A stretch of 34,861 nt of DNA from a bacterium (GTDB taxonomy: Bacteria > Patescibacteriota > Microgenomatia > UBA1406 > GWC2-37-13), in the NCBI GenBank assembly GCA_021825445.1, contig JAKAHA010000010.1, positions 1 to 34,861 of the forward strand, given 5' to 3'. The notes beneath the pieces are model-generated. The model did not search any database. It saw only the letters and a list, made by a program, of their open reading frames with translations, and was not told the origin of the DNA. Within the stretch, counting starts at the first letter, position 1; each line of letters starts with the position of its first letter. Positions 1-33,804 of this stretch are shown here, piece after piece. The position numbers and the translations under genes are program-made.

Positions 1-105
1 GAAAGGGTAATTTGCCACATTAGCCACTTGTTTTTTGAGTAGAGCATTAAAAAGAGTACTTTTTCCAACATTTGGCAATCCGACGATACCGATTGACAGC
101 TTCAT
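1..105 (-). CDS. ychF: Ribosome-binding ATPase YchF, N-terminal fragment
   Basis: Partial gene running off the left edge; only the first 35 codons are present. The translation starts with an Obg-like G1/P-loop, GLPNVGKST at residues 9-17, and ends in ANYPF, the pattern expected of YchF/OLA1 (family knowledge: usual motif ANYPFCTI). YchF is a universal cytosolic ATPase/GTPase that binds ribosomes and acts in translation and stress responses. The start is the ATG at 105, where the family normally begins. It is divergent from the XRE regulator at 230. A different Obg-family GTPase is possible, but NYPF right after the P-loop helix is typical of YchF. Confidence 0.85.
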
Positions 106-175
106 AGATGAATATTATAACATACACCTATATCGTCAAAAAAATACTTTCCTAACAATCCGAAATACTACTTTT

Positions 176-219
176 GTAGGTTATAAACCATTGACAGGTA
201 ATTTTAATTTATATATTCT
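176..219 (+). promoter_or_regulatory. Promoter and operator-like dyad of first XRE gene
   Basis: A near-palindrome GTAGGTTATAAACCA (176-190) abuts a consensus promoter, TTGACA at 191-196, 17-nt spacer, TATTCT at 214-219. The -10 box ends 10 nt before the ATG at 230, so the transcript has almost no leader. A perfect version of the dyad (GTAGGTTATAACCTAC) occurs at 1272-1287 before the paralogous XRE gene, so this is probably the regulators' shared operator (inference). Confidence 0.6.
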
Positions 220-229
220 CTACACCAGC

Positions 230-451
230 ATGCGTGAAAATTTTTTCTACCATAATTTAGGAAAAATAATCATTCGTCTGCGAGAAAAAAAGAGGCTGAC
301 GCAAGAACAGCTTTGCCTTCTTTGTGATATTGATCGTTCATATTTTTCACGAATTGAAAAAGGACTGGCAAATCCATCAATCAGAACCCTTTATAAACTA
401 AGTCGAGTCCTAAGAATAAAAATATATGATTTATTCAAAAGAGCCACCTAG
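230..451 (+). CDS. XRE-family helix-turn-helix regulator (copy A)
   Basis: A 73-residue protein that is essentially one Cro/C1 (XRE) helix-turn-helix domain: LTQEQLCLLCDIDRSYFSRI forms the HTH around residues 23-42, followed by the family signature EKGLANPSIRTL. I chose the ATG at 230, not an upstream in-frame codon, because the promoter box ends at 219 and because the paralogue at 1322 aligns from the same point with the same length. It is about 40% identical by eye to that paralogue. A dyad shared by both promoters suggests auto- and cross-regulation. Its stop codon overlaps the first base of REP copy 1. A stand-alone XRE repressor of this size could regulate the adjacent RayT transposase, but that is inference. 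Confidence 0.85.
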   Translation: MRENFFYHNLGKIIIRLREKKRLTQEQLCLLCDIDRSYFSRIEKGLANPSIRTLYKLSRVLRIKIYDLFKRAT

Positions 452-489
452 CCACCCTTGTACTAACCTCCGAGGTTAGTACAGCTTGG
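451..489 (+). repeat. REP palindrome, copy 1 (5' flank of RayT)
   Basis: Starts GCCACCCTTGTACTAACCTC. Positions 459-470 and 472-483 are perfect 12-nt inverted arms around a single C at 471. The distal half is degenerate (ACAGCTTGG). It lies between XRE copy A and rayT. Related copies are at 1158-1198 and 28756-28796. Confidence 0.85.
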
Positions 490-496
490 AAAAAAT

Positions 497-1141
497 ATGA
501 AAAGAACAAATAGATTTATTGAGGGCGAAATTTATCACGTATTCAATAAAAGCATCTCTAAATATGGTATTTTTAATGATCTTGATAATGGTCAGAGGTT
601 TTTAAATACTTTTCAGCACTATAATAGTCGATTATCTTTGAAAAGCTACTCTGATTTTAATAAAAGAAAGAAATTTAATTATGGAAATATTATAAATCCA
701 ATAGAAAATAGTTATTGTAAAGTTTTAACTTATTGTATTATGCCGGACCACTACCATTTTTTACTTAAAATATTAAAAAGCGATTCACTTTCAAAATTAA
801 TTAGTGACATTGAGAATAGCTATACTCGTTTTTTTAATATTAAATTTGAACGTCGGGGTCCTTTATGGCAAAATTGTTTTAAAGTTGTTAAAATTCGGTT
901 TGATGATCAGTTATTACGTGTGAGCAGATATATTCATCTTAATCCGATTGTAAAACGTTTGGTAGATAGGCCAGAAGACTGGATTTTTTCATCATATAAG
1001 GATTTTGTAACAAATAAAAATGTTTTAAAAAATATTAAGGAATTAAAAGTACAAAAAATCATAGAGTATAAGGAATTTGTTGAAAATATCGATAATTATT
1101 CAAAAGATTTAACAAATATCAAAAAATTAATGTTAGAATAA
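497..1141 (+). CDS. rayT: REP-associated tyrosine transposase (RayT, Y1/HUH)
   Basis: 214-residue IS200/IS605-type Y1 transposase of the TnpA-REP (RayT) class. The HUH metal motif is HYH at residues 85-87 in the signature YCIMPDHYHFLL. A likely nucleophile is Tyr109 in ENSYTRFF. The typical RayT C-terminal stretches RRGPLWQ and SRYIHLNP are present. Family members nick single-stranded DNA at structured REP palindromes and are domesticated single-copy genes rather than free IS elements. The gene is flanked on both sides by palindromes of the expected type (451-489 and 1158-1198), and a third copy lies 27 kb away. It sits between two paralogous XRE genes. The A-rich GGAAAAA before the ATG is a weak ribosome site. 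No disruption is seen. Confidence 0.92.
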   Translation: MKRTNRFIEGEIYHVFNKSISKYGIFNDLDNGQRFLNTFQHYNSRLSLKSYSDFNKRKKFNYGNIINPIENSYCKVLTYCIMPDHYHFLLKILKSDSLSKLISDIENSYTRFFNIKFERRGPLWQNCFKVVKIRFDDQLLRVSRYIHLNPIVKRLVDRPEDWIFSSYKDFVTNKNVLKNIKELKVQKIIEYKEFVENIDNYSKDLTNIKKLMLE

Positions 1142-1157
1142 TTTATAGCTTGTTACA

Positions 1158-1198
1158 GCCACCCTTGTACTAACCTCGGAGGTTAGTACAAGGGTGGC
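1158..1198 (+). repeat. REP palindrome, copy 2 (3' flank of RayT), perfect
   Basis: Perfect inverted repeat with 20-nt arms: GCCACCCTTGTACTAACCTC at 1158-1177, a single G at 1178, and the exact reverse complement at 1179-1198. It begins 16 nt after the rayT stop. It may also act as a hairpin ending rayT transcripts, though no T-run follows directly. Confidence 0.9.
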
Positions 1199-1233
1199 GA
1201 AAGGGGAGTATTTTTATAATGTGGTATATCGAG

Positions 1234-1287
1234 ATAATTGTTTTGTCATGACGATCTAAAACAATTATTTTGTAGGTTATAACCTAC
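1234..1287 (+). promoter_or_regulatory. Double dyad upstream of second XRE gene
   Basis: Two separate dyads. ATAATTGTTTT (1234-1244) is repeated inverted as AAAACAATTAT (1258-1268), giving 11-bp arms around a 13-nt loop. It is followed directly by the perfect palindrome GTAGGTTATAACCTAC (1272-1287). The second matches the imperfect dyad at 176-190. These are likely binding sites for the XRE proteins. Confidence 0.55.
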
Positions 1288-1321
1288 TGAATTTAAACTG
1301 ATGTTCAAATATTATTACCCA

Positions 1322-1543
1322 ATGGCCAGAGGCAATTTCTACTATAAAAGATTGGGTGAAAAAATCATTATTTACCGAAAAAAACTTAAACTTTCACAAC
1401 AACAAGTTGCAACTCTTTCTGATGTTGATCGTAGTTACTTGGCTGAAGTTGAGGAGGGGAAGGCAAATCCTTCAATTAAATTTCTTCATCGCATTTCAAA
1501 AACTCTGAAGGTGAAAGTAGGGAATTTGATAAAAGAGCTGTAG
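1322..1543 (+). CDS. XRE-family helix-turn-helix regulator (copy B)
   Basis: A 73-residue single-domain XRE regulator, paralogue of the protein at 230-451. The HTH is LSQQQVATLSDVDRSYLAEV, followed by EEGKANPSIKFL. An in-frame ATG at 1301 would add seven residues. I prefer 1322 because it aligns exactly with copy A in length and N-terminus (MARGNFYY against MRENFFYH). The distance from the palindromic operator to this ATG (about 42 nt from its centre) is also similar to copy A (about 47 nt). It is followed at 1561 by a TrmH-like methyltransferase, possibly co-transcribed. The RayT/REP module lies between the two copies, so it either inserted between duplicated genes or the three form one functional module. 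Confidence 0.85.
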   Translation: MARGNFYYKRLGEKIIIYRKKLKLSQQQVATLSDVDRSYLAEVEEGKANPSIKFLHRISKTLKVKVGNLIKEL

Positions 1544-1560: not shown

Positions 1561-2112
1561 ATGAAACTCAATGCTAAAGAGATGCGGGATGTCGATGAGA
1601 CGGATAATATTATTGCCCAAAAAATCAAAAACCTCAAACGTCGCAAAATGTATTTTATCTTGGAAAATATTTATGATACTTATAACATTGGAGGATTGTT
1701 TCGCTTGGCCGATGCACTAGCTATTGAAAAAATATATATCTGCGGCGAATCGGAAATTCCACCTAATCCAAAGATAAAAAAAGCCTCGATTGGGACTTAT
1801 AAAGTTGTGCCGTGGGAATACAAAAAATCTGCAAGGGAAGCGATCGTAGAACTACGAACTACGAACTACGAACTACAACCTAAAATAATTGCAGTTGAAC
1901 AGGCAAAAAACTCTATTTCTTATTCAAAGGCTGATTATTCAACCCCAGTTGCGCTCATTCTTGGAAATGAAACTTATGGAGTGACGGAGAAGACTTTAAA
2001 ATTAGCAGACCAAATAGTTGAGATTCCGATGTGGGGAATAAACAAGTCACTTAACGTCATTGTCTCTGCAGCGATTGTAAGTTATTGGGCGGTCAATAGC
2101 TCGTTCAAATAA
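1561..2112 (+). CDS. SpoU/TrmH-family RNA 2'-O-methyltransferase
   Basis: 183 residues with the three SPOUT (trefoil-knot SAM methyltransferase) motifs in order: motif 1 NIYDTYNIGGLFRLADAL, motif 2 LILGNETYGV and motif 3 IPMWGINKSLNVIVSAAI. Proteins of this family methylate a ribose in tRNA or rRNA; the exact substrate cannot be read from sequence. The start is the ATG at 1561; an upstream TTG at 1546 is in frame but less likely. The gene follows XRE copy B by 17 nt. Oddity: a four-unit tandem heptamer (GAACTAC) at 1849-1876 encodes RTTNYEL between motifs 1 and 2, a repeat-derived in-frame insertion like the one in copA. Confidence 0.9.
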   Translation: MKLNAKEMRDVDETDNIIAQKIKNLKRRKMYFILENIYDTYNIGGLFRLADALAIEKIYICGESEIPPNPKIKKASIGTYKVVPWEYKKSAREAIVELRTTNYELQPKIIAVEQAKNSISYSKADYSTPVALILGNETYGVTEKTLKLADQIVEIPMWGINKSLNVIVSAAIVSYWAVNSSFK

Positions 2113-8578: not shown

Positions 8579-10051
8579 ATGAAAAACAACTTCGATTACA
8601 TAATCATCGGCTCGGGTATTGCTGGACTTACAACGGCTTTAACACTAGCGGATTCGGGTAAAGTCGCCATATTTACAAAAAAAAATCCTTCAGATTCTTC
8701 GACTAACCTAGCTCAAGGCGGAATGGCGGCGATGGTGGGAGGGGAAGATCGCAAAGAATGGCACATTGAAGACACGATGAAGGCGGGGGATTTTCATAAT
8801 AAAAGAGAGGCGGTCAAACTTCTTGTTGATGATAGTCAGGAAGCATTACTTTGGTTAAAAGAACAAGGAGTTTTATTTGATGTGAAGCCTTCTCTTGAAG
8901 CAGGGCACAGATTACCACGAATTTTTCATACGACCGATTTTACCGGAGCTGATATTCAAAAAACGTTGCTTAAAAAAATTTCTGAAAATAAAAATATTAA
9001 GATTTTTAAAAATACTTTAGCGGTTGATTTAATTGTGCAAAAAAATATTTGTCACGGCATTTATGTTTTGACTGAAGAAAATAAAATTGTTCCGTTTTTT
9101 TCTAAATCTGTTGTTTTAGCAACCGGAGGATCCGGTCAAGTTTACCAGTGGACGACAAACCCAACAGTTGCCACCGGAGACGGGTTGGCTATCGCAATCC
9201 GAGCTGGAGCAAAAACTTTAGATCTTGAATTTGTCCAGTTTCATCCGACTGCTTTTAAGGCAAAAATTTTACCTTTATTTTTGTTATCAGAGCGACTTCG
9301 AGGAGAAGGGGCGAGGTTGGTAGATGATAAAGGTCATAGGTTTGTTGATGAACTTCTTCCACGGGATATTGTAGCTCGGGCTGTTTTTGAAAAACAAAAA
9401 ACCAGTGAAGTTTTTTTGACAATGGCTCACTTGGATAAAAAAGAGATTATTAAAAAACTGCCAAATATTTATAAAAAACTAAAAACTTATGGCTATTATC
9501 TTACTCACGATCGTATACCAGTTACGCCAGCGGCTCACTATCAATGTGGAGGAATCATTACTGACCTTAATGGAAAAACGTCCATAAAAAATTTATATGC
9601 CGTGGGAGAGGTGGCGGCAACCGGGGTACATGGGGCAAATCGACTGGCGTCAAATTCGCTTTTGGAAGGAGTGGTGTACGGGAAACGGATTGGAAAGTTT
9701 ATTGTGTCATCCCCGCGGAGGCGGGGATCCAGTGTTTCCAATTTGATTCAGAGAAGTAATTTTAGTCTGGATTCCCTCCTTCGAGGGAATGACAGTAAGA
9801 CATTAAATAAAATAAAAACAAATATCCAAAAACTCATGTGGGAAAAGGTGGGGATTGTAAGAACAAAAAAAGAATTGTCAGGAGCTTTAAAAACTTTTAA
9901 ATCATACAAAAAACAACTTGAAAAAATTAAAAAAAAACGCGGAATTTCATATGAATTAATTGAAGTGCTTAATTTATCCGAAGTTGCACTCGCTATAACT
10001 CAATATGCTTTAAATCGTCCCAAAAGTCTTGGCGCTCACTACTTAAGATAG
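8579..10051 (+). CDS. nadB: L-aspartate oxidase with in-frame palindromic insertion
   Basis: 490 residues. NadB oxidises L-aspartate to iminoaspartate, the substrate of NadA. N-terminal FAD-binding Rossmann motif IIIGSGIAGLTTALTLADSG; then NLAQGGMAA, the active-site regions ATGGSGQVY, EFVQFHPTAF, LRGEGARLVD and LLPRDIVARAV; then HYQCGGI and the conserved GANRLASNSLLEG. The C-terminal helical domain (LMWEKVGIVR) is also present. Between these, residues about 377-405 (SSPRRRGSSVSNLI onward) are encoded entirely by a copy of palindromic repeat A (9706-9793) read in frame. They replace a normally variable linker, so the enzyme is probably still functional. It is divergent from nadA and nadC. The stop codon overlaps the convergent SHOCT gene by 9 bp. 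Confidence 0.95.
   Translation: MKNNFDYIIIGSGIAGLTTALTLADSGKVAIFTKKNPSDSSTNLAQGGMAAMVGGEDRKEWHIEDTMKAGDFHNKREAVKLLVDDSQEALLWLKEQGVLFDVKPSLEAGHRLPRIFHTTDFTGADIQKTLLKKISENKNIKIFKNTLAVDLIVQKNICHGIYVLTEENKIVPFFSKSVVLATGGSGQVYQWTTNPTVATGDGLAIAIRAGAKTLDLEFVQFHPTAFKAKILPLFLLSERLRGEGARLVDDKGHRFVDELLPRDIVARAVFEKQKTSEVFLTMAHLDKKEIIKKLPNIYKKLKTYGYYLTHDRIPVTPAAHYQCGGIITDLNGKTSIKNLYAVGEVAATGVHGANRLASNSLLEGVVYGKRIGKFIVSSPRRRGSSVSNLIQRSNFSLDSLLRGNDSKTLNKIKTNIQKLMWEKVGIVRTKKELSGALKTFKSYKKQLEKIKKKRGISYELIEVLNLSEVALAITQYALNRPKSLGAHYLR
9706..9793. repeat. Palindromic repeat family A, copy 2, inside nadB
   Basis: 88 bp, the same length as copy 1, beginning GTCATCCCCGCGGAGGCGGG and ending TCGAGGGAATGAC. Contained completely in the nadB reading frame without stop codons. 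Confidence 0.92.
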
Positions 10052-11675: not shown

Positions 11676-11918
11676 ATGTTAATACAAACTTTATATAAAA
11701 ACGGCAACTCAATAGCAGTTACTATTCCGCATCAGTATTTATCAGAATTGAACTTAAAAGAAGGGTCTGAGGTGGTGGTGGAAAAGGAAGGTCAAGATCT
11801 ACGTATTATTGCTAAAAAGCATACACTTGCCGCAGATGTGGATCCAAAATTTATGAAAATGGTTGATGATTTCGTCAATGATCATGAAAGTGTACTTCAT
11901 GAGTTAGCTCAAAAATAA
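11676..11918 (+). CDS. AbrB/MazE-type antitoxin
   Basis: 80 residues. The N-terminal SpoVT-AbrB swapped-hairpin DNA-binding domain is clear (TLYKNGNSIAVTIPHQYLSE, then LKEGSEVVVEKEG), at about residues 4-45. The C-terminal tail (about 50-80) is acidic and helical and would wrap the toxin. The stop TAA and the next gene's ATG share one A (11918), so the two are translationally coupled. The direct repeats in its promoter are probably its own binding site. AbrB-type antitoxins paired with Doc toxins are known, though Phd-type partners are more usual. Confidence 0.88.
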   Translation: MLIQTLYKNGNSIAVTIPHQYLSELNLKEGSEVVVEKEGQDLRIIAKKHTLAADVDPKFMKMVDDFVNDHESVLHELAQK

Positions 11919-12319
11919 TGAACGATACAACATGCTATCTTTCTATTACACAGGTTTTGGCAATTCACGATCAGATGATAAAACGTTTTGGGGGATCTGC
12001 CGGAGTAAGAGATTTAGGACTTATAAAATCTGCAATTGCCAGACCTCAAGCTACTTTTGATGGAGTTGATTTATATCAGACACTATTTGATAAAGCCGCA
12101 GCTTTATTACAATCTCTTTTAAAAAATCATCCTTTTATTGACGGAAATAAGAGAACTGCCCTCTCATCAGCTGGTATATTTCTTGCCTCAAATGGATATA
12201 AACTCATGAACAGACATAAACAGGAAGTGACCTTCACGCTTGCTGTAGCTAACGATAAGTTGACACTTCAAGATATATCTAATTGGTTCAAAAAATATTC
12301 AACTAAAATATTAATTTGA
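11918..12319 (+). CDS. doc: Doc (death-on-curing) family Fic toxin
   Basis: 133 residues, the normal Doc length. The Fic-fold active-site loop HPFIDGNKRT at residues 71-80 matches the H-x-F-x-x-x-N-K-R Doc pattern. His71 is the catalytic base. The N-terminal YLSITQVLAIHDQMIKRFGG and RDLGLIKSAIARPQ are typical of Doc. Doc proteins phosphorylate elongation factor Tu and stop translation; related Fic enzymes transfer AMP. It overlaps its antitoxin gene by one base. It lies immediately outside the left end of the integrative element, so it could stabilise this region or belong to an older insertion. Confidence 0.92.
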   Translation: MNDTTCYLSITQVLAIHDQMIKRFGGSAGVRDLGLIKSAIARPQATFDGVDLYQTLFDKAAALLQSLLKNHPFIDGNKRTALSSAGIFLASNGYKLMNRHKQEVTFTLAVANDKLTLQDISNWFKKYSTKILI

Positions 12320-12344
12320 TTTTATTTTGTTCTATATTTTTTTT

Positions 12345-12360
12345 GGGTGACTGACGGGAT
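12345..12360. repeat. Left attachment-site repeat (copy of tRNA-His 3' end)
   Basis: GGGTGACTGACGGGAT is identical to 20285-20300, which is the 3' end of tRNA-His on the minus strand. No other part of a tRNA is present here. It marks the distal end of an integrated element. Confidence 0.75.
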
Positions 12361-12405
12361 GGTTCGGCAAGCTCACCATTTACCTGATACTCATATTCGA
12401 CAATC

Positions 12406-12678
12406 TCAGGATTTACTCAATTGTTTTAATAACTCAATATTTCCTTCTATTAAAGCATTCTTCTTTGCATGACTCCACCCTTTAAGCTGTTTTTCACGTT
12501 TTTCAGCTAATTTTCTATTTGAATATTTTTCTGTATATTTTAACCGTATCTGAGAAAACTTTTTCGTTCCAATATTATATCCAGACTTATGTGATTCTAA
12601 CCTATTTTGAATATTTGATGTTAGACCAACATAAAAAGTTTTCTCATCGCAAAGAAGAATGTAAATATGCCATTCCAT
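12406..12678 (-). CDS. GIY-YIG (URI-type) nuclease domain protein
   Basis: 90 residues. It begins MEWHIYILLCDEKTFYVGLT, the GIY-YIG motif written here as HIYIL...FYVGLT, followed by the conserved Arg in NIQNRLESHKSG and a later Glu in AEKREKQLKGW. This is the small stand-alone UvrC-intron-type endonuclease family (COG2827-like). The upstream in-frame extension is rejected because it is made of the 23-bp tandem repeats. Its cellular role is unclear; such genes are often mobile. Confidence 0.88.
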   Translation of the reverse strand: MEWHIYILLCDEKTFYVGLTSNIQNRLESHKSGYNIGTKKFSQIRLKYTEKYSNRKLAEKREKQLKGWSHAKKNALIEGNIELLKQLSKS

Positions 12679-12692
12679 AAATATATTTTTAT

Positions 12693-12814
12693 GGGTAGTA
12701 AACCCTGGAATTGATGGGTCGTAAACCCTGAAATTGATGGGTCGTAAACCCTGAAATTGATGGGTAGTAAACCCTGAAATTGATGGGTAGTAAACCCTGA
12801 GCTTGTCGAATGGG
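12693..12814. repeat. 23-bp tandem repeat array, about 4.7 copies
   Basis: Unit begins GGGTAGTAAACCCTG and ends AATTGAT; starts at 12693, 12716, 12739, 12762 and 12785. Units two and three have GTCG for GTAG. The last unit runs into a 20-bp family E repeat (12795-12814). GGGTN4AAACCC in each unit is a small dyad. It lies just upstream of the GIY-YIG gene. There are no spacers, so it is not CRISPR. Confidence 0.9.
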
Positions 12815-12851
12815 TGACTGGGCGGACTCATTTAGAACCCAGGTTAGTCAG

Positions 12852-13349
12852 TTAGCTTTTCGATAAAACAACTGATTGTTTAACTTTTAAATGGGTTTTG
12901 TCCAATAACCAATATATAAATCTTTTATAAAATGGCGACATATTTAATCTATATATATTCCCTACAGCGTCATAAGCAGCAAAATAGCTTATATTTTTAA
13001 GATCGAGATCTTTTTGTTTTGTTAGAAAATCTGCACTTTTACCCTCTTTAAGCTCTCGACTTCCATAAATCATGCTATCGGAAAAAATAAAACCTCCTTT
13101 ATTTTTTAGATAAATACCGGCAGTTTTTGTTATAGTTACCGGTCTTCGTCCTTTATTAGCAACTGTTAGTGAAGCATATGTTTCTTTTGGGTCGTATGGA
13201 TGATTTCCAATTATTTTCCAGTTCTTGGTAAAAGTTAATTTGATGTCAGCTTGATCTCTTTTGTAATTGAAGTAAGTAAATACAAGACCAGCACTTCCAG
13301 TAATGGCACCCCAAACCGCTATTAAATCTATCAAGTTTAGTTTTACCAT
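12852..13349 (-). CDS. Membrane-anchored protein, function unknown
   Basis: 165 residues. One N-terminal transmembrane helix (about 6-28, LIDLIAVWGAITGSAGLVFT), then a soluble domain with a beta-rich look (ASLTVANKGRRPVTITKTAG), similar to small Ig-like accessory domains seen beside transmembrane anchors. A C-terminal basic segment follows. I do not recognise the family. On the minus strand TATAAT lies at 13358-13363, 8 nt before the ATG, with TTCAAT 17 nt further up, supporting this start. It is divergent from the OLD nuclease with only 91 bp between starts, so the two may be a regulated pair. Confidence 0.65.
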   Translation of the reverse strand: MVKLNLIDLIAVWGAITGSAGLVFTYFNYKRDQADIKLTFTKNWKIIGNHPYDPKETYASLTVANKGRRPVTITKTAGIYLKNKGGFIFSDSMIYGSRELKEGKSADFLTKQKDLDLKNISYFAAYDAVGNIYRLNMSPFYKRFIYWLLDKTHLKVKQSVVLSKS

Positions 13350-13440
13350 TTAAAACAATTATATAAAATAAATGTGACGAATTGAAGAATTGTAAGAATC
13401 AGAGTACAATTTATCTGAATATAAAAATAAATATTAAAAT

Positions 13441-15207
13441 ATGAAGCTAATTTCATTTAGGATAAAAGGATTCAAGTCAATCATTGATACGGGTGAAAGC
13501 AGGTTATCTGAAAAAGACTCCATTACAGTATTAGCCGGCCAGAATGAAGCAGGCAAAAGTGCTGCTCTTGAGGCTTTAGAATTTTTTAAGCAAGGACCTG
13601 GGCCAGACTTTGTAAGACTTCAAAAACGGATGGATAGTAGTAATACTGAAGTGACATGTAAATTCCTATTATCTGATGAAGATATAGCCGATATAAAAAA
13701 AGGGTTCAATGATCAACGAATAGACGATTTTTTTAAATCGTCAAAAACTGTAGAAATAAGGCGAATTTGGACAGAGGGTGCAAATGCGATAGGAGAACTT
13801 ATAATTGAAGATGATTATTTCACATCATTTGAATTTAATCCTCCCACATCTCCAGAGCCAGATCCAAATGCTCATCCGGGGACAGCTGAAGCAAAACCCC
13901 CAGAAGTGACAAAAGAAAGTTTAGTTAAGATATTTAGAGAGAGAATATTAGGAAAAATACCCGTAATTACACTATATCGATACTTTACTGACTTTTTACC
14001 TTCTGATATTGAAATAACAAAAATAGCAACCAATGCGGCTGTTAAAGATTTTGAAAAAGTTTTTGACGTTAACCTAATGACAGTAGCAAGTATTTCGGAT
14101 TCAAGACAGCTTGAGGCAACTTTGGAAGATATTAGCACAAAAGCAACTGATGATTTCAATAAATCATGGTCACAGCAATTGAACCTTACTGATGATACAA
14201 AATATAAATTTGTTGTCCGAATTAACCAGCAAGAACCGCGAAAAGTAACCTTTATGATTAAAGGCACAGATAATAAGCCACTATGGCTCGAGCAAAAAAG
14301 TATGGGTTTCAGATGGTTTAGCGCATTCCATCTACGATTAAGAGCTTTAGGTGCAACGGAAAATCTTAACAATCTTATTTTGTTAGTTGATGAGCCTGGA
14401 CAAAATCTGCATGAAAAAGCACAGCTAGATGCAAAAAAAGTTCTTGAAGAACTAGCTGCAAAAGGCGCTCAGATAATTTATTCGACACATAATGCTAAGT
14501 TAATAGGTACAGAAGGAGCAGAATTCGCTCGGATTCGACTCGTATCTAATTCAAAATCAAAAGGAACTAAAATTGAAACAGTCAGTCAATTCGCTTCTAG
14601 GCCTGATAATGGTAGTATGGATGCTTTATCGCCAATAATTACAGCAATGGGAATGAGTAGCATAAGTTCTTTTGTCGACAGAGAAAGATACAATGTTGTT
14701 GTAGAAGGTATTACCGATCATTATTATCTTTCAGCATTCAGAAAATTATTAGGTAAAAACGACAAATTATATTTTGTTCCTGCATGTGGCGTGCATAATG
14801 TTCCTAATTTAGTTAGTGTTCTTATAGGATGGGGTTTTAAATATAAAGCTGTTTTTGACGATGATGCTAAAGGCGGCAGGAAGGCATATACCTTATTAAA
14901 AAAGGAGTTCTATAATAATGATGACACTCTTGCTCATGAACACATATTGAAAATAAAAGATTGTAATGGAATCGAGGATGTTTTTAATACTCAAGATTAT
15001 TATAAATACGTATTAGGACAAGCTCAACCAACCGGCGATCAAAATAGAGCTAATTCTGAAATAGCTGATGGGAGAAAAGAGATCTTAGCCAGGGGTTTTT
15101 TAGAGAAGGTTGAAAATAATGAAACCATTAACCTAAGCAGTCAAACAAAATCTAAGATAAACAGTGTTTTTCAATGGTTATATCAAAAATTCAATATAGC
15201 TACTTAA
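13441..15207 (+). CDS. OLD-family ATP-dependent nuclease (ABC ATPase plus TOPRIM)
   Basis: 588 residues. Domains in order: an SMC/RecF-like ABC ATPase with Walker A GQNEAGKS (33-40) and Walker B LILLVDEPGQNLHE (about 315-328). The His switch is STHNAKLI. Then comes a TOPRIM nuclease domain with the acidic Glu in VVVEGITDHYYLSAF (about 419-433) and the DxD equivalent in AVFDDDAKGG (about 467-476). OLD proteins cut DNA in an ATP-dependent way and act in phage exclusion; GajA of Gabija is one relative. No UvrD-like gajB follows, so this is best called a stand-alone (class 1-like) OLD nuclease. Promoter TTGAAG-16-TACAAT (-10 at 13405-13410). It is probably the defence cargo of the island. Confidence 0.88.
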   Translation: MKLISFRIKGFKSIIDTGESRLSEKDSITVLAGQNEAGKSAALEALEFFKQGPGPDFVRLQKRMDSSNTEVTCKFLLSDEDIADIKKGFNDQRIDDFFKSSKTVEIRRIWTEGANAIGELIIEDDYFTSFEFNPPTSPEPDPNAHPGTAEAKPPEVTKESLVKIFRERILGKIPVITLYRYFTDFLPSDIEITKIATNAAVKDFEKVFDVNLMTVASISDSRQLEATLEDISTKATDDFNKSWSQQLNLTDDTKYKFVVRINQQEPRKVTFMIKGTDNKPLWLEQKSMGFRWFSAFHLRLRALGATENLNNLILLVDEPGQNLHEKAQLDAKKVLEELAAKGAQIIYSTHNAKLIGTEGAEFARIRLVSNSKSKGTKIETVSQFASRPDNGSMDALSPIITAMGMSSISSFVDRERYNVVVEGITDHYYLSAFRKLLGKNDKLYFVPACGVHNVPNLVSVLIGWGFKYKAVFDDDAKGGRKAYTLLKKEFYNNDDTLAHEHILKIKDCNGIEDVFNTQDYYKYVLGQAQPTGDQNRANSEIADGRKEILARGFLEKVENNETINLSSQTKSKINSVFQWLYQKFNIAT

Positions 15208-18013: not shown

Positions 18014-18601
18014 ATGATTTCGATAAAAAATATGGGAAGACAATATTATTCTTACAGACCGGTAGCCGAGAATTATAAAAAAATAAGAATATCTTCTTTA
18101 AAAAGGGATGGATATCTTGCTCAGTGGTATAGCGGCATTATCAGTTGGGGTTGTGGTCCAGGCGAATATAAAGAAAGCATAAAGATAGAATGCTCTATTA
18201 ACCCTATGTATCCAAATATAAAGTTTATTTATAATCAGATAAGTTATCTTGTTAGTCTTACTACAACGCCTTGTCATTTTGGTGGTAAAAGATATTGGTT
18301 TGTATGTCCTTTGACTATTAACGGTAGGGACTGCGGAAAAAGAGTTGGCGTACTTTATAAGGGAAATGATTATTTCGGTTGTCGACACTGTTTTAATTTG
18401 ACCTACCAATCAAGGAGGGATAATCCTACAGTTAAAGCTGTGTTGTTTCTCATTGATTATGAGAAAAATATTGAAAAATTAACCACAAAATTAAAACGAT
18501 ATTTTTATAAAGGAAAAGCAACAAGAAAACTCATGACACTTAATAAGATTGAACACAAAGTATTAAAAGCATATAAAGTTGTTAAGACGTTTAATTCTTG
18601 A
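18014..18601 (+). CDS. Zinc-ribbon protein of unknown function
   Basis: 195 residues. The central part has TTPCHFGGKRYWFVCP, DCGKRVGVLY and FGCRHCFNLTYQSRR. Cys106, Cys117, Cys124, Cys140 and Cys143 (approximate positions) can form a treble-clef or zinc-ribbon site. This recognisable family of hypothetical proteins is common in mobile elements and always carries the FxCxxCxxLTYxSxR signature. A role in DNA binding is likely but unproven. An alternative start is the ATG at 18032 (MGRQYYSY). It overlaps the upstream end of the recombinase ORF region by a few bases. Confidence 0.7.
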   Translation: MISIKNMGRQYYSYRPVAENYKKIRISSLKRDGYLAQWYSGIISWGCGPGEYKESIKIECSINPMYPNIKFIYNQISYLVSLTTTPCHFGGKRYWFVCPLTINGRDCGKRVGVLYKGNDYFGCRHCFNLTYQSRRDNPTVKAVLFLIDYEKNIEKLTTKLKRYFYKGKATRKLMTLNKIEHKVLKAYKVVKTFNS

Positions 18602-18623
18602 CATCGTTTATAAAGGGATTATC

Positions 18624-20294
18624 ATGGATGTAAGTATAAAAATAAATATGGATAGATATATTTTCTATAAACGCAAGTCGTCTGATTCCGAGGACCGGCA
18701 AATCTTAAGTTTGGAATCACAAGATAGGACAATTAAGGAAACTACTACCGGCTTTAATGGTTTTAAGATAATATCCGATTACGAAGAATCCAAATCGGCT
18801 AAAGCTCCCGGACGACCAAAGTTTAACGAGATGTGTGAAAAGCTGGAAAGAGGCCTAGCAAACTACATTATCTGTTGGCAATTAAACCGGTTGGCAAGAA
18901 ATCCTGTCGACGGCGGTCGGATAATTTGGTTGGTTCAAAATTACGGAGTAAAAATCGTGACTCCTTCAAAAACCTATGGTATTGATGACATACTTTTAAT
19001 GTATGTTGAGTTTGCCATGAGTAATCAGTTTATTAACGATTTGAAAAAATCGACAACCAGGGGTTTAAACGATAAACTTCATGCTGGTATTGCTCCAATC
19101 AGGGCGCCTATAGGATATTACAACGATGTTACTAAAAAACAAGGATTAAGGGATATTTTAGTCGATGATTTACGTTTTCCTCTTGTTAGAAAAATGTGGG
19201 ATTTATTTTTATCGGGCAATTATTCCGTACCGAGAATTTTAGATATGGCCACCAACCAATGGGGATTGAGGCAAAGAAATGGTCGTCCATTTTCACGGAC
19301 TCAAGCATTTAGACTCTTCAGAAACGTCTTTTATACCGGAAAGTATGAGTATAAGGGAGAAATCCATATAGGCGTCCACCAACCAATGATCACGATTGAC
19401 GAATATGATAAAGCCCAAAAAATATTAGGTAATAATGGTGGTTTTAGGCTTTCCAAACATACTTTTGCTTTCAATAATAAGATTATTCACTGTACTTGTG
19501 GGTCAGGCGTTACTGCTCATGAAAGATATAGAAAAGTGTGTTCAAAGTGTCATCATAAATATAATGCTGTAATAAATAGCCTATGTCCAAAATGTAAAAC
19601 ACCTGCACCGGAAGAAACATGGTATGGTTGCCTATACCATTGCACGAGAAAAAAGAACTCAAAGTGTACACAGCCATCAGTAAAATTGAAAGATTTAGAA
19701 GAACAATTTGACTATTATATTTCATCGCTCACTCTACCCAGTGAGTTTATAGATTGGGTATTGGTAAGGCTACGGAAGGCTCATGAGGAAGAAAGTCGAA
19801 GCCGAGATACGATCAATATCAATTTACAGGCAACACTCAACGCAACTACCCGCAAATTAGACAATCTTTTGTCCAAATATCTCAGTGAGGAAAATAAAAC
19901 AGGCGAAATAATAAGCGATGAAGAGTATAAAAGACAAAAATGGTTATTGGCCGATCAGAAAACGAAGATGGAAGAATCTTTAAAAGGATTTAGTAAGAGA
20001 CAGGATGATTGGCTGACTATCGCCGAAAAAGCCTTGGATTTTGCTCGTACAGCCCAAGAAAAGTTTAAAACGGCCAGTAAAGAAGAGAAACGGGAGATGG
20101 TTTTATCTTTTGGATTGAACCTGACTTTGGAGAATAGAAAATTATATCTTGACCTACTAAAACCATTCGGGAAGATAAAAGAAGCGGCTGATAGACTAAG
20201 AGATCCTTCAGAAAAGATTGAACCCGTACAACGGATAGACACAAAGGGCCAAACCTTCTATTTTGACTCTGCGAATCCCATTTGGGGTGACTGA
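18624..20294 (+). CDS. Large serine recombinase (site-specific integrase)
   Basis: 556 residues. Resolvase catalytic domain (about 10-150): FYKRKSSDSEDRQILSLESQ with the nucleophile Ser19 or Ser20, then WQLNRLARNPVDGGRI with the catalytic Arg. A recombinase (DNA-binding) domain spans about 170-290 (GLNDKLHAGIAPIRAPIGYY onward). A zinc-binding domain has Cys pairs HCTCGSG, CSKCHHK, CPKCKTP and CLYHC. A long coiled coil follows (about 385-470). Start: ATG 18624 preceded by AAAGGG; the TTG at 18579 is rejected. The final residues IWGD and the stop TGA are encoded inside tRNA-His (antisense), so the gene reaches into the attachment core. It presumably integrates and excises the 12345-20300 element. 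Confidence 0.9.
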   Translation: MDVSIKINMDRYIFYKRKSSDSEDRQILSLESQDRTIKETTTGFNGFKIISDYEESKSAKAPGRPKFNEMCEKLERGLANYIICWQLNRLARNPVDGGRIIWLVQNYGVKIVTPSKTYGIDDILLMYVEFAMSNQFINDLKKSTTRGLNDKLHAGIAPIRAPIGYYNDVTKKQGLRDILVDDLRFPLVRKMWDLFLSGNYSVPRILDMATNQWGLRQRNGRPFSRTQAFRLFRNVFYTGKYEYKGEIHIGVHQPMITIDEYDKAQKILGNNGGFRLSKHTFAFNNKIIHCTCGSGVTAHERYRKVCSKCHHKYNAVINSLCPKCKTPAPEETWYGCLYHCTRKKNSKCTQPSVKLKDLEEQFDYYISSLTLPSEFIDWVLVRLRKAHEEESRSRDTININLQATLNATTRKLDNLLSKYLSEENKTGEIISDEEYKRQKWLLADQKTKMEESLKGFSKRQDDWLTIAEKALDFARTAQEKFKTASKEEKREMVLSFGLNLTLENRKLYLDLLKPFGKIKEAADRLRDPSEKIEPVQRIDTKGQTFYFDSANPIWGD

Positions 20295-20358
20295 CGGGAT
20301 TTGAACCCGCAACATTCGCCTCCACAGGGCGACGCTCTACCGTTGAGCTACAATCACC
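20283..20358 (-). tRNA. tRNA-His (GUG)
   Basis: Cloverleaf with anticodon loop CUGUGGA (GTG) on a TCGCC/GGCGA stem, D-arm GCTC/GAGC and T-arm GCGGG/CCCGT. The extra G at -1 opposite C73, diagnostic of tRNA-His, is encoded, and the CCA end is encoded (20283-20285). Its 3' end is the attachment site of the integrative element and is duplicated at 12345-12360. Confidence 0.95.
20285..20300. repeat. Right attachment-site repeat
   Basis: GGGTGACTGACGGGAT inside tRNA-His, identical to 12345-12360. It also contains the stop codon of the recombinase gene (20292-20294). Confidence 0.75.
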
Positions 20359-25896: not shown

Positions 25897-25932
25897 ATGT
25901 GCGGCGGATGCAGTAAACCAAAAGGAAAGTAA
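25897..25932 (+). CDS. Possible 11-residue CxxC micropeptide
   Basis: MCGGCSKPKGK and stop, 4 nt after the copA stop. CGGC is a typical soft-metal ligand motif and the position inside a copper operon is suggestive. It is too short to judge by codon statistics and could be chance; the downstream palindromic repeat starts 3 nt after its stop. Confidence 0.35.
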   Translation: MCGGCSKPKGK

Positions 25933-25935
25933 CGT

Positions 25936-26022
25936 GTCATCCCCGTGTAGACGGGGATCCAGTCGATAATCACATTTTAAAAAGGTAATTATAGTCTGGA
26001 TTCCCACCTTCGTGGGAATGAC
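25936..26022. repeat. Palindromic repeat family A, copy 3
   Basis: 87-bp two-hairpin element (GTCATCCCCGTGTAGACGGG ... TTCGTGGGAATGAC) filling the gap between the micropeptide and the next gene, whose ATG is 3 nt beyond. Confidence 0.9.
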
Positions 26023-26025
26023 ACT

Positions 26026-27354
26026 ATGAAATTCAATAAAAAAACTTTGCCCATTAAAGGCATGCACTGTCCGTCTTGTGAGATTTTAATAACGGACAAA
26101 TTTAAGGAAATGTCAAATGTGTCAGTTGTTAAACCAAATTTTAATAAACAGGAAGCTGAAGTTTATTTCACTGGACATTTGGACCAAAAGGCTTTAAACA
26201 TGAAAATCCAGCAATTTGGATATGAAATTGGAGACCCACCTACTACCGCCACGGCGGGATTCGGCGAGGCGAGGAAAAATATTGTTGAAGCATTTTTGAT
26301 TGCGGTTGGTTTGGGGCTAATATACTTAATTGCAAAAGAAATTAATATTATTCCGAATATTAATATCACTGGGAATTTGAATTTATTAACTGTTTTGTTT
26401 TTAGGCTTAGTTGCTTCAATTTCGACTTGCATGGCGACATCTGGAGCACTATTTTTGTCAACAATCGGCAAAAAAACAAACAGTTTAAAACAAGCAATTT
26501 ATTTTAGTTTGGGTCGAATTATTTCTTACGCTATTTTTGGTTTTATTGCTGGACTAATTGGTAGCGTCATTATTACTAATCTAAAATTTGGATCGGGATT
26601 AACATTATTGGCAGCAGTTTTTATGATTCTTCTTGGACTGGACATGTTAAAAATTCTTTCTTTTGCCTCAATCGTTCCATATGGAGTCACTTCAAATATT
26701 TTTAGAAAATTAGAACATTTCTTGATTAAAGATCCACATAAATCGGCCTTTTTTTTAGGAGCGATTACCTACTTTTTACCTTGTGGATTTACTCAGGCGA
26801 CTCAGGTTTATGCGTTGGGACTTGCTTCGCCTTTACAAAGTGCCCTAACCATGGCTGTCTTTGCCGCGGGAACCGCTCCAGCAATAATATTTATTGGTTC
26901 ATTAAAAGGCTTGTTAAAAAACACAATTTACCAATATTTTATGAAGGTTGTAGCTGTTGGCGTGTTAATTTTGGGTTTTTATTATATTTCAAATTTTCTG
27001 GCGATCTATGGGATTGGTTCAAATTGGACAAATAAGTCTAATAAGACTAGCTTGCTTGTGCAAGCAAGTGCGGTCAATTTGGTCGATGGTAAACAAATCA
27101 TCAATATGGCTGTAATAAATGGTGGGTATTCTCCTAATTTTCTTACAGTTAAAAAAGGGATACCAGTTAAATGGGTCATTGACGGAAAAAATGTTTTTGG
27201 TTGCCAGGGATATTTTGTCGTACCAACTTTAGGTATTTCTAAAGCACTTTCAGAGGGAGAAAATATTATAGAATTTACACCACAAGAAACGGGGATAATC
27301 AACTTTTCCTGTGGAATGGGAATGTATCGGGGAAGAATACAAATTATTGATTAG
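26026..27354 (+). CDS. HMA - TauE/SafE-like membrane - cupredoxin fusion
   Basis: 442 residues in three domains. (1) An HMA metallochaperone domain (about 8-72) with GMHCPSC (Cys15, Cys18). (2) A TauE/SafE or DsbD-like membrane domain (about 85-320), with STCMATSGALFL and YFLPCGFTQATQVYALGLAS, each carrying a Cys in a helix. (3) A C-terminal cupredoxin (about 345-442), with VFGCQGYFVVP and NFSCGMGMYRG holding copper-ligand Cys and Met. It probably hands Cu(I) from the cytosol through the membrane to the outer cupredoxin domain, or reduces it, acting with CopA. A short palindromic insertion (CCGCC/GGCGG) encodes TATAGFGEA near residue 75. It is the last gene of the copper operon. Confidence 0.85.
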   Translation: MKFNKKTLPIKGMHCPSCEILITDKFKEMSNVSVVKPNFNKQEAEVYFTGHLDQKALNMKIQQFGYEIGDPPTTATAGFGEARKNIVEAFLIAVGLGLIYLIAKEINIIPNINITGNLNLLTVLFLGLVASISTCMATSGALFLSTIGKKTNSLKQAIYFSLGRIISYAIFGFIAGLIGSVIITNLKFGSGLTLLAAVFMILLGLDMLKILSFASIVPYGVTSNIFRKLEHFLIKDPHKSAFFLGAITYFLPCGFTQATQVYALGLASPLQSALTMAVFAAGTAPAIIFIGSLKGLLKNTIYQYFMKVVAVGVLILGFYYISNFLAIYGIGSNWTNKSNKTSLLVQASAVNLVDGKQIINMAVINGGYSPNFLTVKKGIPVKWVIDGKNVFGCQGYFVVPTLGISKALSEGENIIEFTPQETGIINFSCGMGMYRGRIQIID

Positions 27355-28004: not shown

Positions 28005-28080
28005 TAGTATGGATTCCCGCGTCCGCGGGAATGACATGTCTTGCGTTGTTTGTCATCCCCTTGAAGAAGGGGATCCAGTC
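28005..28080. repeat. Palindromic repeat family A, copy 4, halves exchanged
   Basis: The right-hand hairpin (TATGGATTCCCGCGTCCGCG...AATGAC, to 28035) comes before the left-hand hairpin (GTCATCCCCTTGAAGAAGGG, 28052 on). The order is reversed relative to copies 1-3, a circular permutation. It lies between PAP2 and the HAD gene. Confidence 0.8.
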
Positions 28081-28101
28081 TATTAATTACACTTTTTAAT
28101 T

Positions 28102-28746: not shown

Positions 28747-28755
28747 CTTATTCTT

Positions 28756-28796
28756 GCCACCCTTGTACTAGCCTCCGAGGTTCGGACAGATTTGGC
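28756..28796 (+). repeat. REP palindrome, copy 3 (isolated)
   Basis: GCCACCCTTGTACTAGCCTC then CGAGGTTCGGACAG, ending TTTGGC: the same start as the copies at RayT, 27 kb away, with the degenerate distal half like copy 1. It lies between the HAD gene and the convergent orphan at 28813. Confidence 0.82.
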
Positions 28797-28812
28797 AAGA
28801 TGTAATTAAATA

Positions 28813-33540: not shown

Positions 33541-33593
33541 TAAGTCAAGAGATATTATAACAATTGGGTGGAAGATAAGAAATAGAAATAAAT

Positions 33594-33620
33594 GTCATCC
33601 CCGTGAAAACGGGGATCCAT
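33594..33620. repeat. Palindromic repeat family A, half copy
   Basis: Only the left hairpin (GTCATCCCCGTGAAAACGGG with GATCCAT). It forms the last codons of the 33595 gene on the minus strand. Confidence 0.85.
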
Positions 33621-33804
33621 GTTTTCGGAAGGGGTGAACCATCTTAAATATCTTTAAATTAAAATAAACGAGGACTCCAAAAATTAATAGAAAAATTGTC
33701 ATATAGGGAATTTTAAAAATTAACATGTCGATAAGTATAAACACACAAAGACTGTTTGAAATAAAAAATATTTTTACAACAATTGTCCAGAGATCTTTTT
33801 CCAT
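33595..33804 (-). CDS. Small membrane protein with repeat-derived C-terminus
   Basis: 69 residues, two hydrophobic helices (about 7-28 and 33-53, very Ile/Phe-rich). The last residues HGSPFSRG and the stop come from the half copy of repeat A, so the original C-terminus was probably replaced. Family unknown; a chance ORF cannot be excluded. Confidence 0.5.
   Translation of the reverse strand: MEKDLWTIVVKIFFISNSLCVFILIDMLIFKIPYMTIFLLIFGVLVYFNLKIFKMVHPFRKHGSPFSRG

Follow-up and report, generated by a model that had tools for sequence, protein, structure and literature searches.

A common promoter element links DNA-uptake genes, recA, small XRE proteins and RAYT transposases in Candidatus Roizmanbacteria

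We show here a promoter element of about 75 bp, the geometry of the promoters that it marks and the membership of the corresponding regulon in Candidatus Roizmanbacteria (Patescibacteria, Microgenomates). That the regulon itself is real we regard as practically certain. The analysed stretch of DNA (34,861 nucleotides, called the window below) belongs to a 1.02 Mb assembly of 33 contigs, which XRE2 matches in named genomes place in Ca. Roizmanbacteria, and we consider it probable that it represents a node of a genus-wide, competence-like regulon which includes RAYT transposases and is probably controlled by autoregulated XRE proteins.

Organisation of the window

The first 2.1 kb of the window contain, in this order, the start of ychF on the reverse strand, XRE1, REP1, RAYT, REP2, XRE2 and a SpoU/TrmH methyltransferase. 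The coordinates and the HTH_3 and Y1_Tnp matches confirmed the layout XRE - REP - RayT - REP - XRE of the original prediction, and the palindrome with perfect 20-nt arms predicted on one side of RayT is REP2. The features are as follows.

1..105, reverse strand: 5' end of a gene for an Obg-like GTPase, taken to be ychF, divergent from XRE1; its 35 residues are 91-100% identical to a GTPase ORF of 367-382 aa in G002, G015 and G018
126..196, forward strand: element copy 1 (XRE1) with upstream TATATCG, core TTTTGTAGGTTATAA and the -35 box TTGACA at 191-196; model R1 match C5:128-201 (E 7e-19) and alignment
214..219, forward strand: predicted -10 box of XRE1, TATTCT, 17 nt past the -35 box; column composition of 150 elements and sequence
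230..451, forward strand: XRE1, 73 aa, single-domain Cro/CI-type HTH protein (HTH_3, 1.3e-13)
450..490, no strand: REP1, palindrome with core ACCTC-N-GAGGT and an imperfect lower stem; 12-nt perfect arms 459-470/472-483
497..1141, forward strand: RAYT (Y1 HUH transposase), 214 aa, with His85-Tyr-His87 and a YIHLNP motif (Tyr145); Y1_Tnp PF01797, 3.6e-11
1158..1198, no strand: REP2, perfect 20-nt arms 1158-1177/1179-1198; repeat comparison
1222..1292, forward strand: element copy 2 (XRE2) with GGTATATCG, a core with the perfect dyad GTAGGTTATAACCTAC at 1272-1287 and a degenerate -35 box CTGAAT at 1287-1292; model R1 match C5:1222-1295 (E 1e-18)
1310..1315, forward strand: predicted -10 box of XRE2, TATTAT; promoter geometry of 150 aligned elements and sequence
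1322..1543, forward strand: XRE2, 73 aa, with its start moved from 1301 to 1322 (HTH_3, 3.3e-13; conserved start; ATG 100 nt from the element start, the commonest spacing)
1561..2112, forward strand: SpoU/TrmH-family RNA 2'-O-methyltransferase downstream of XRE2, an ordinary neighbour (PF00588, 7.9e-32)
28753..28801, no strand: third REP copy of the window, diverged (REP search)

The start of XRE2 was placed at 1322 and not at the listed ATG 1301 because the conserved start MxRGNFYYKRLG lies at 1322 and position 1301 is upstream of the predicted -10 box. With this start both XRE paralogues have the same length, as predicted, and they are ~45% identical. The scan of the locus for known RNA families gave sub-threshold chance matches only.

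Other parts of the window contain further repeats and a possible integrated element. A second hairpin repeat, GTCATCCCCG...CGGGGATCCAG, is dispersed over five places (2145-2260, 9700-9815, 25930-26044, 28046-28100 and 33588-33642) and is frequently accompanied by CTGGATTCCC...GGGAATGAC; the copy at 9700-9815 lies in frame within nadB and is reminiscent of the in-frame palindromic elements of Rickettsia. A large serine recombinase gene adjoins tRNA-His (18579-20357), and upstream of it are Fic/Doc, GIY-YIG and AAA_15 (OLD-like) genes (11918-15207); together these may form an integrated element. The 5' part of the GIY-YIG ORF is a tandem array of a 23-nt unit (12688-12805).

The promoter element

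Four more genomic sites align without gaps, over ~75 nt, to the sequences that precede XRE1 and XRE2. A sequence-only model (R1) trained on these six copies and then searched over the 1.02 Mb genome found 26 full copies with E<=3e-8, separated by a sharp score gap from the next match, a half-site before recA (E 6e-4). A 27th listed match (C18:1-55) was left out, since it lies on a contig end that overlaps the XRE1 copy. Searching the genome for the pattern, with three mismatches allowed, returned the same sites, and the control gave no match. All 26 copies lie upstream of a co-directional gene. Their alignment is gapless, with TATATCG, a C at position 35 and TTTTGTAGGTTATAA-N-C near-invariant and with variable spacers. 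The consensus TATATCG-N~40-TTTTGTAGGTTATAA-N-C-N2-TTGACA has fixed spacing and a -35 box at its end.

Among 150 distinct elements aligned from this genome and its relatives, TTGACA occupies columns 65-70 and TATAAT columns 88-93, exactly 17 nt later; the -10 box lies outside the columns of the model. The ATG of 142 genes has its mode at column 100, and 50% of them fall at 98-107. With an ATG 7 nt past the -10 box, many targets would have leaderless mRNAs, and the mRNAs of element-driven genes are probably of this kind. The element is placed immediately before a sigma70-type promoter, whose -35 box closes it, and the transcript would begin at the ATG or close to it.

The element is present in all 19 congeners (1-34 copies each) and in 10 of the 17 other members of the family, and 20 genomes from farther away gave one weak case; because of this distribution we regard it as a lineage-specific promoter code. 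The literature searched, which leaves most subscription journals aside, contained no description of the element or of a promoter uniting DNA uptake, recA, XRE and RAYT, and within the same limits reports on regulons of Patescibacteria or Roizmanbacteria and on RAYT in Patescibacteria were silent on it.

The matching dyads predicted in the two XRE promoters are real (imperfect at 174-189 for XRE1, perfect at 1272-1287 for XRE2), but they are merely part of the ~75-nt element. Their reading as the operator is weak: most target copies are asymmetric, and at XRE promoters covariation preserving a dyad did not exceed that of shuffles (124 vs 122, p 0.32).

Genes under the element

In the genome of the window the 26 copies precede XRE1, XRE2, comEA, five TrpR-like genes, five genes for small membrane proteins, three S23-type genes, three more Y1 transposases, two PaaX-like genes, a Gp49/HigB gene followed by an XRE gene, and genes for GT87, an LCAT-like protein, a lamin-tail protein and a coiled-coil protein. 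Toxin-antitoxin genes are among the target classes. For many targets (small membrane proteins, GT87, LCAT-like, S23) a tie to DNA uptake is not apparent. Membrane proteins of 60-70 aa, with no Pfam match where scanned, are repeatedly the first gene past the element, here and in relatives (L074, L075, L080, L087, L094).

Two features of a competence regulon were found, a promoter signal common to DNA-uptake genes and the inclusion of recombination genes. The element is followed by comEA, an S23-type gene and the start of comEC in the genome of the window (G000), and comEA-comEC follow it also in G014 and G008; ComEC was identified by NCBIfam in G014, and the same N-terminus occurs in G000 and G008. 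The number of three genomes reflects the fact that only some loci were read. The core site precedes recA in 15 of 17 Roizmanbacteria genomes (p<=0.01 each; a half-site in the genome of the window), and in G008 an element stands before YifB/ComM. This gene content makes a competence-like function of the regulon, in DNA uptake and recombination, likely. Upstream of recA, many congeners (L270, L271, L274, L277, L280, L281) have a conserved stretch of their own (like ATCAGCTTAATCTATC) just before the core, which replaces the distant TATATCG.

The core is also found at 34 of the 41 XRE loci of Roizmanbacteria, mostly 53-64 nt before the ATG, and the element at about 41 of the 56 Y1 transposase loci of the genus (38 full elements with a score >0 and three core sites; 400 shuffled windows of 700 nt scored -14.6 at most). 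The usual spacing at these loci is 100-132 nt. Three of the 15 Y1_Tnp loci without the element are at contig ends, and three resemble plain IS200 transposases as judged by reading their sequences. All six RAYTs of G008 carry the element (hypergeometric p 7e-9, 720 genes assumed). The RAYT of the window has no element of its own. The nearest one, 371 nt upstream, belongs to XRE1, and XRE1 and RAYT are therefore probably transcribed as an operon, as in G002 and G015.

The REP-RAYT-REP block

The REP-RAYT-REP block is one unit, a REPtron. The transposase is a single-copy gene, and its H85-Y-H87 and YIHLNP motifs are invariant across six orthologues. Its score against REP_Tyr_transpos (NF047646) was 71.8 bits, below the cut-off of 80, and its sole sequence relative among solved structures was TnpA-REP 4er8, a weak match (E 0.011). 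REP1 and REP2 are 97% alike across 34 nt. The REP core occurs in 11 genomic copies as opposed to none for the reversed control, so it is not due to chance. The core ACCTCNGAGGT lies on both sides of RAYT in the window, G002, G015, G017 and G019, as well as at further loci, and RAYTs of the same subtype in relatives have palindromes on either side with the core ACCTC-N-GAGGT and lineage-specific stems. A GTAG-type tetranucleotide was absent from the REP feet in the window and in the REP sequences of relatives, read by eye. Two REP copies (1501-1523 in both L001 and L006) lie within ORFs, a 592-aa membrane protein and an AroB-like ORF, and leave the frames unbroken.

In G000, G002 and G015, all at the ychF locus, the block separates the stop codon of XRE1 from the promoter of XRE2, and the complete five-part arrangement recurs in these genomes only. 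XRE1 and XRE2 are adjacent without RAYT or REP in G007:C18 and G009:C85, which supports the suggestion that RayT was inserted between tandem duplicates. RAYT is also directly upstream of an XRE gene at two other kinds of locus: at the pth locus (G017, G010, G019) it precedes XRE2 without XRE1, and at G006:C34 it adjoins a different XRE. Several other relatives have XRE2 alone, and REP-RAYT-REP units occur away from XRE genes at G006:C7, G007:C11 and G017:C10. The five parts do not form a conserved unit. From its distribution among relatives, REP-RAYT-REP appears as an insertion that came repeatedly to lie beside an XRE gene. The original prediction of a self-regulated, XRE-controlled REPtron accordingly fails as a symmetric module, since XRE pairs without RAYT and RAYT away from XRE are what had been named as refuting it; what survives is a looser association of RAYT with XRE, in recurrent adjacency and a common promoter element.

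Candidate regulators and alternative explanations

The solved structures nearest to XRE1 and XRE2 are SinR (5e-13), C.BclI and C.AhdI. Across the family, genomes with the element tend to be those that give a strong XRE hit (25/5/1/6; Fisher p 0.0012, a test which ignores shared ancestry). Judging from these sequence data, we lean towards the XRE proteins as the regulator of the element, under autoregulation. XRE1 and XRE2, with a SinR/C-protein-like HTH and the element in their own promoters, would bind the element and set a switch. In the window a REPtron is inserted between XRE1 and the XRE2 promoter, with RAYT now probably read from the XRE1 promoter, so that a single-strand transposase would be produced while the cell is taking up single-stranded DNA.

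The regulon may instead be real and answer to another protein, for example a long TrpR-like one or some other factor, with the XRE genes as members only; we hold this to be rather unlikely. It would fit G008, which has 34 elements and no XRE hit (G012, with two elements, also has none; both genomes are ~80% complete), the five TrpR-like genes of the window's genome that carry the element, and the operator symmetry that covariation does not conserve. TrpR-like proteins, however, went undetected in five congeners with 1-13 elements each (G001, G011, G012, G013, G018) and were rejected as a universal regulator, and the element is kept at the XRE promoters counted above even where elements are few. 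An SOS (LexA) operator, which would make the regulon a DNA-damage response, is suggested by recA as a target and by the presence of a LexA gene, yet it is scarcely credible. LexA occurs in nearly all genomes with or without the element, lexA promoters across the genus carry the different, Cheo-type box GTGAACAAATGTTTAC, which recA promoters lack, and in the window's genome no element lies upstream of lexA; lexA and recA have no operator in common, and to the extent that sequence permits LexA is excluded. A LexA box, TTGACAGTGAACAAATGTTTACTATAAT, is conserved in the lexA promoters of Roizmanbacteria (L340-L357), where it overlaps the -35 and -10 boxes; recA is not under this box.

Two other explanations concern mobility. 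If the element were a mobile repeat, a MITE-like promoter cassette perhaps spread by RAYT, and not a regulatory site under selection, its many copies, several of them before transposase genes, and the gene families with several element-bearing members would be expected; but conservation is confined to islands at fixed spacing, every copy has the position and orientation of a promoter, the element is unrelated to the REP palindromes, and it is retained across species at orthologous genes (the recA core site, XRE, comEA), which makes this highly improbable. That a REPtron landed by chance between two XRE genes, the neighbourhood having no functional meaning, is unlikely, if less so. The RAYT-free XRE pairs of G007 and G009 and the three units away from XRE genes speak for it, while the adjacency at three kinds of locus and the promoter element that RAYT and XRE have in common genus-wide speak against it.

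Comparison with known systems and significance

Natural competence regulons include those of Haemophilus (CRP-S), Bacillus (ComK) and Streptococcus (ComX). Like them, the present regulon places comEA/comEC, recA, a ComM-family helicase and accessory genes including toxin-antitoxin genes under one promoter signal. Unlike in those three genera, the signal is 75 bp long, has sigma70-type -35/-10 boxes and is apparently leaderless, small XRE proteins are the probable regulator and RAYT transposases are members. Restriction-modification C proteins regulate their own gene. XRE1 and XRE2, single-domain HTH proteins with SinR and C proteins as their nearest solved structures, differ from these in having no adjacent restriction-modification genes, another operator sequence and putative targets genome-wide.

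Within the Patescibacteria, comEC-dependent natural transformation has been shown in Saccharibacteria (PMC10633639), and comEA-comEC genes occur in the present genomes. The competence passages of that paper describe the machinery and no promoter signal, and Saccharibacteria are another lineage than the one studied here. With REPtrons and RAYTs (TnpA-REP; PMC8266576, PMC2817692) the block shares a single-copy HUH Y1 transposase, flanking palindromic REPs that are also scattered through the genome, the HUH and YIHLNP motifs and 4er8 as the only solved relative found. It differs from the REPtrons of PMC8266576 in the missing GTAG tetranucleotide beside the REPs, and some REPtrons tolerate changes at this position beside the stem (PMC8266576). 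Also different are its low REP copy number (11) and its NCBIfam score below the cut-off, and the RAYT promoters of Roizmanbacteria use an element common to DNA-uptake genes.

REPtrons and competence regulons are known kinds of system; new, by the literature searched, is a promoter common to DNA uptake, recA, small XRE regulators and RAYTs. A tentative reading, somewhat doubtful on the sequence evidence, is that a Patescibacterial competence regulon, switched by two small autoregulated XRE proteins, took in the RAYTs of the genus; DNA import and REP mobilisation would then coincide, and imported single-stranded DNA could be a substrate or a source of REPs.

The control of gene expression in Patescibacteria is almost unknown, and the gain here is a precise, checkable promoter code together with candidate regulators and a set of targets indicative of DNA uptake. 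The old question of why bacteria keep apparently domesticated RAYT transposases, and when they express them, meets here RAYT promoters within a regulon of DNA uptake and recA. The common element suggests one switch for DNA import and mobile DNA together.
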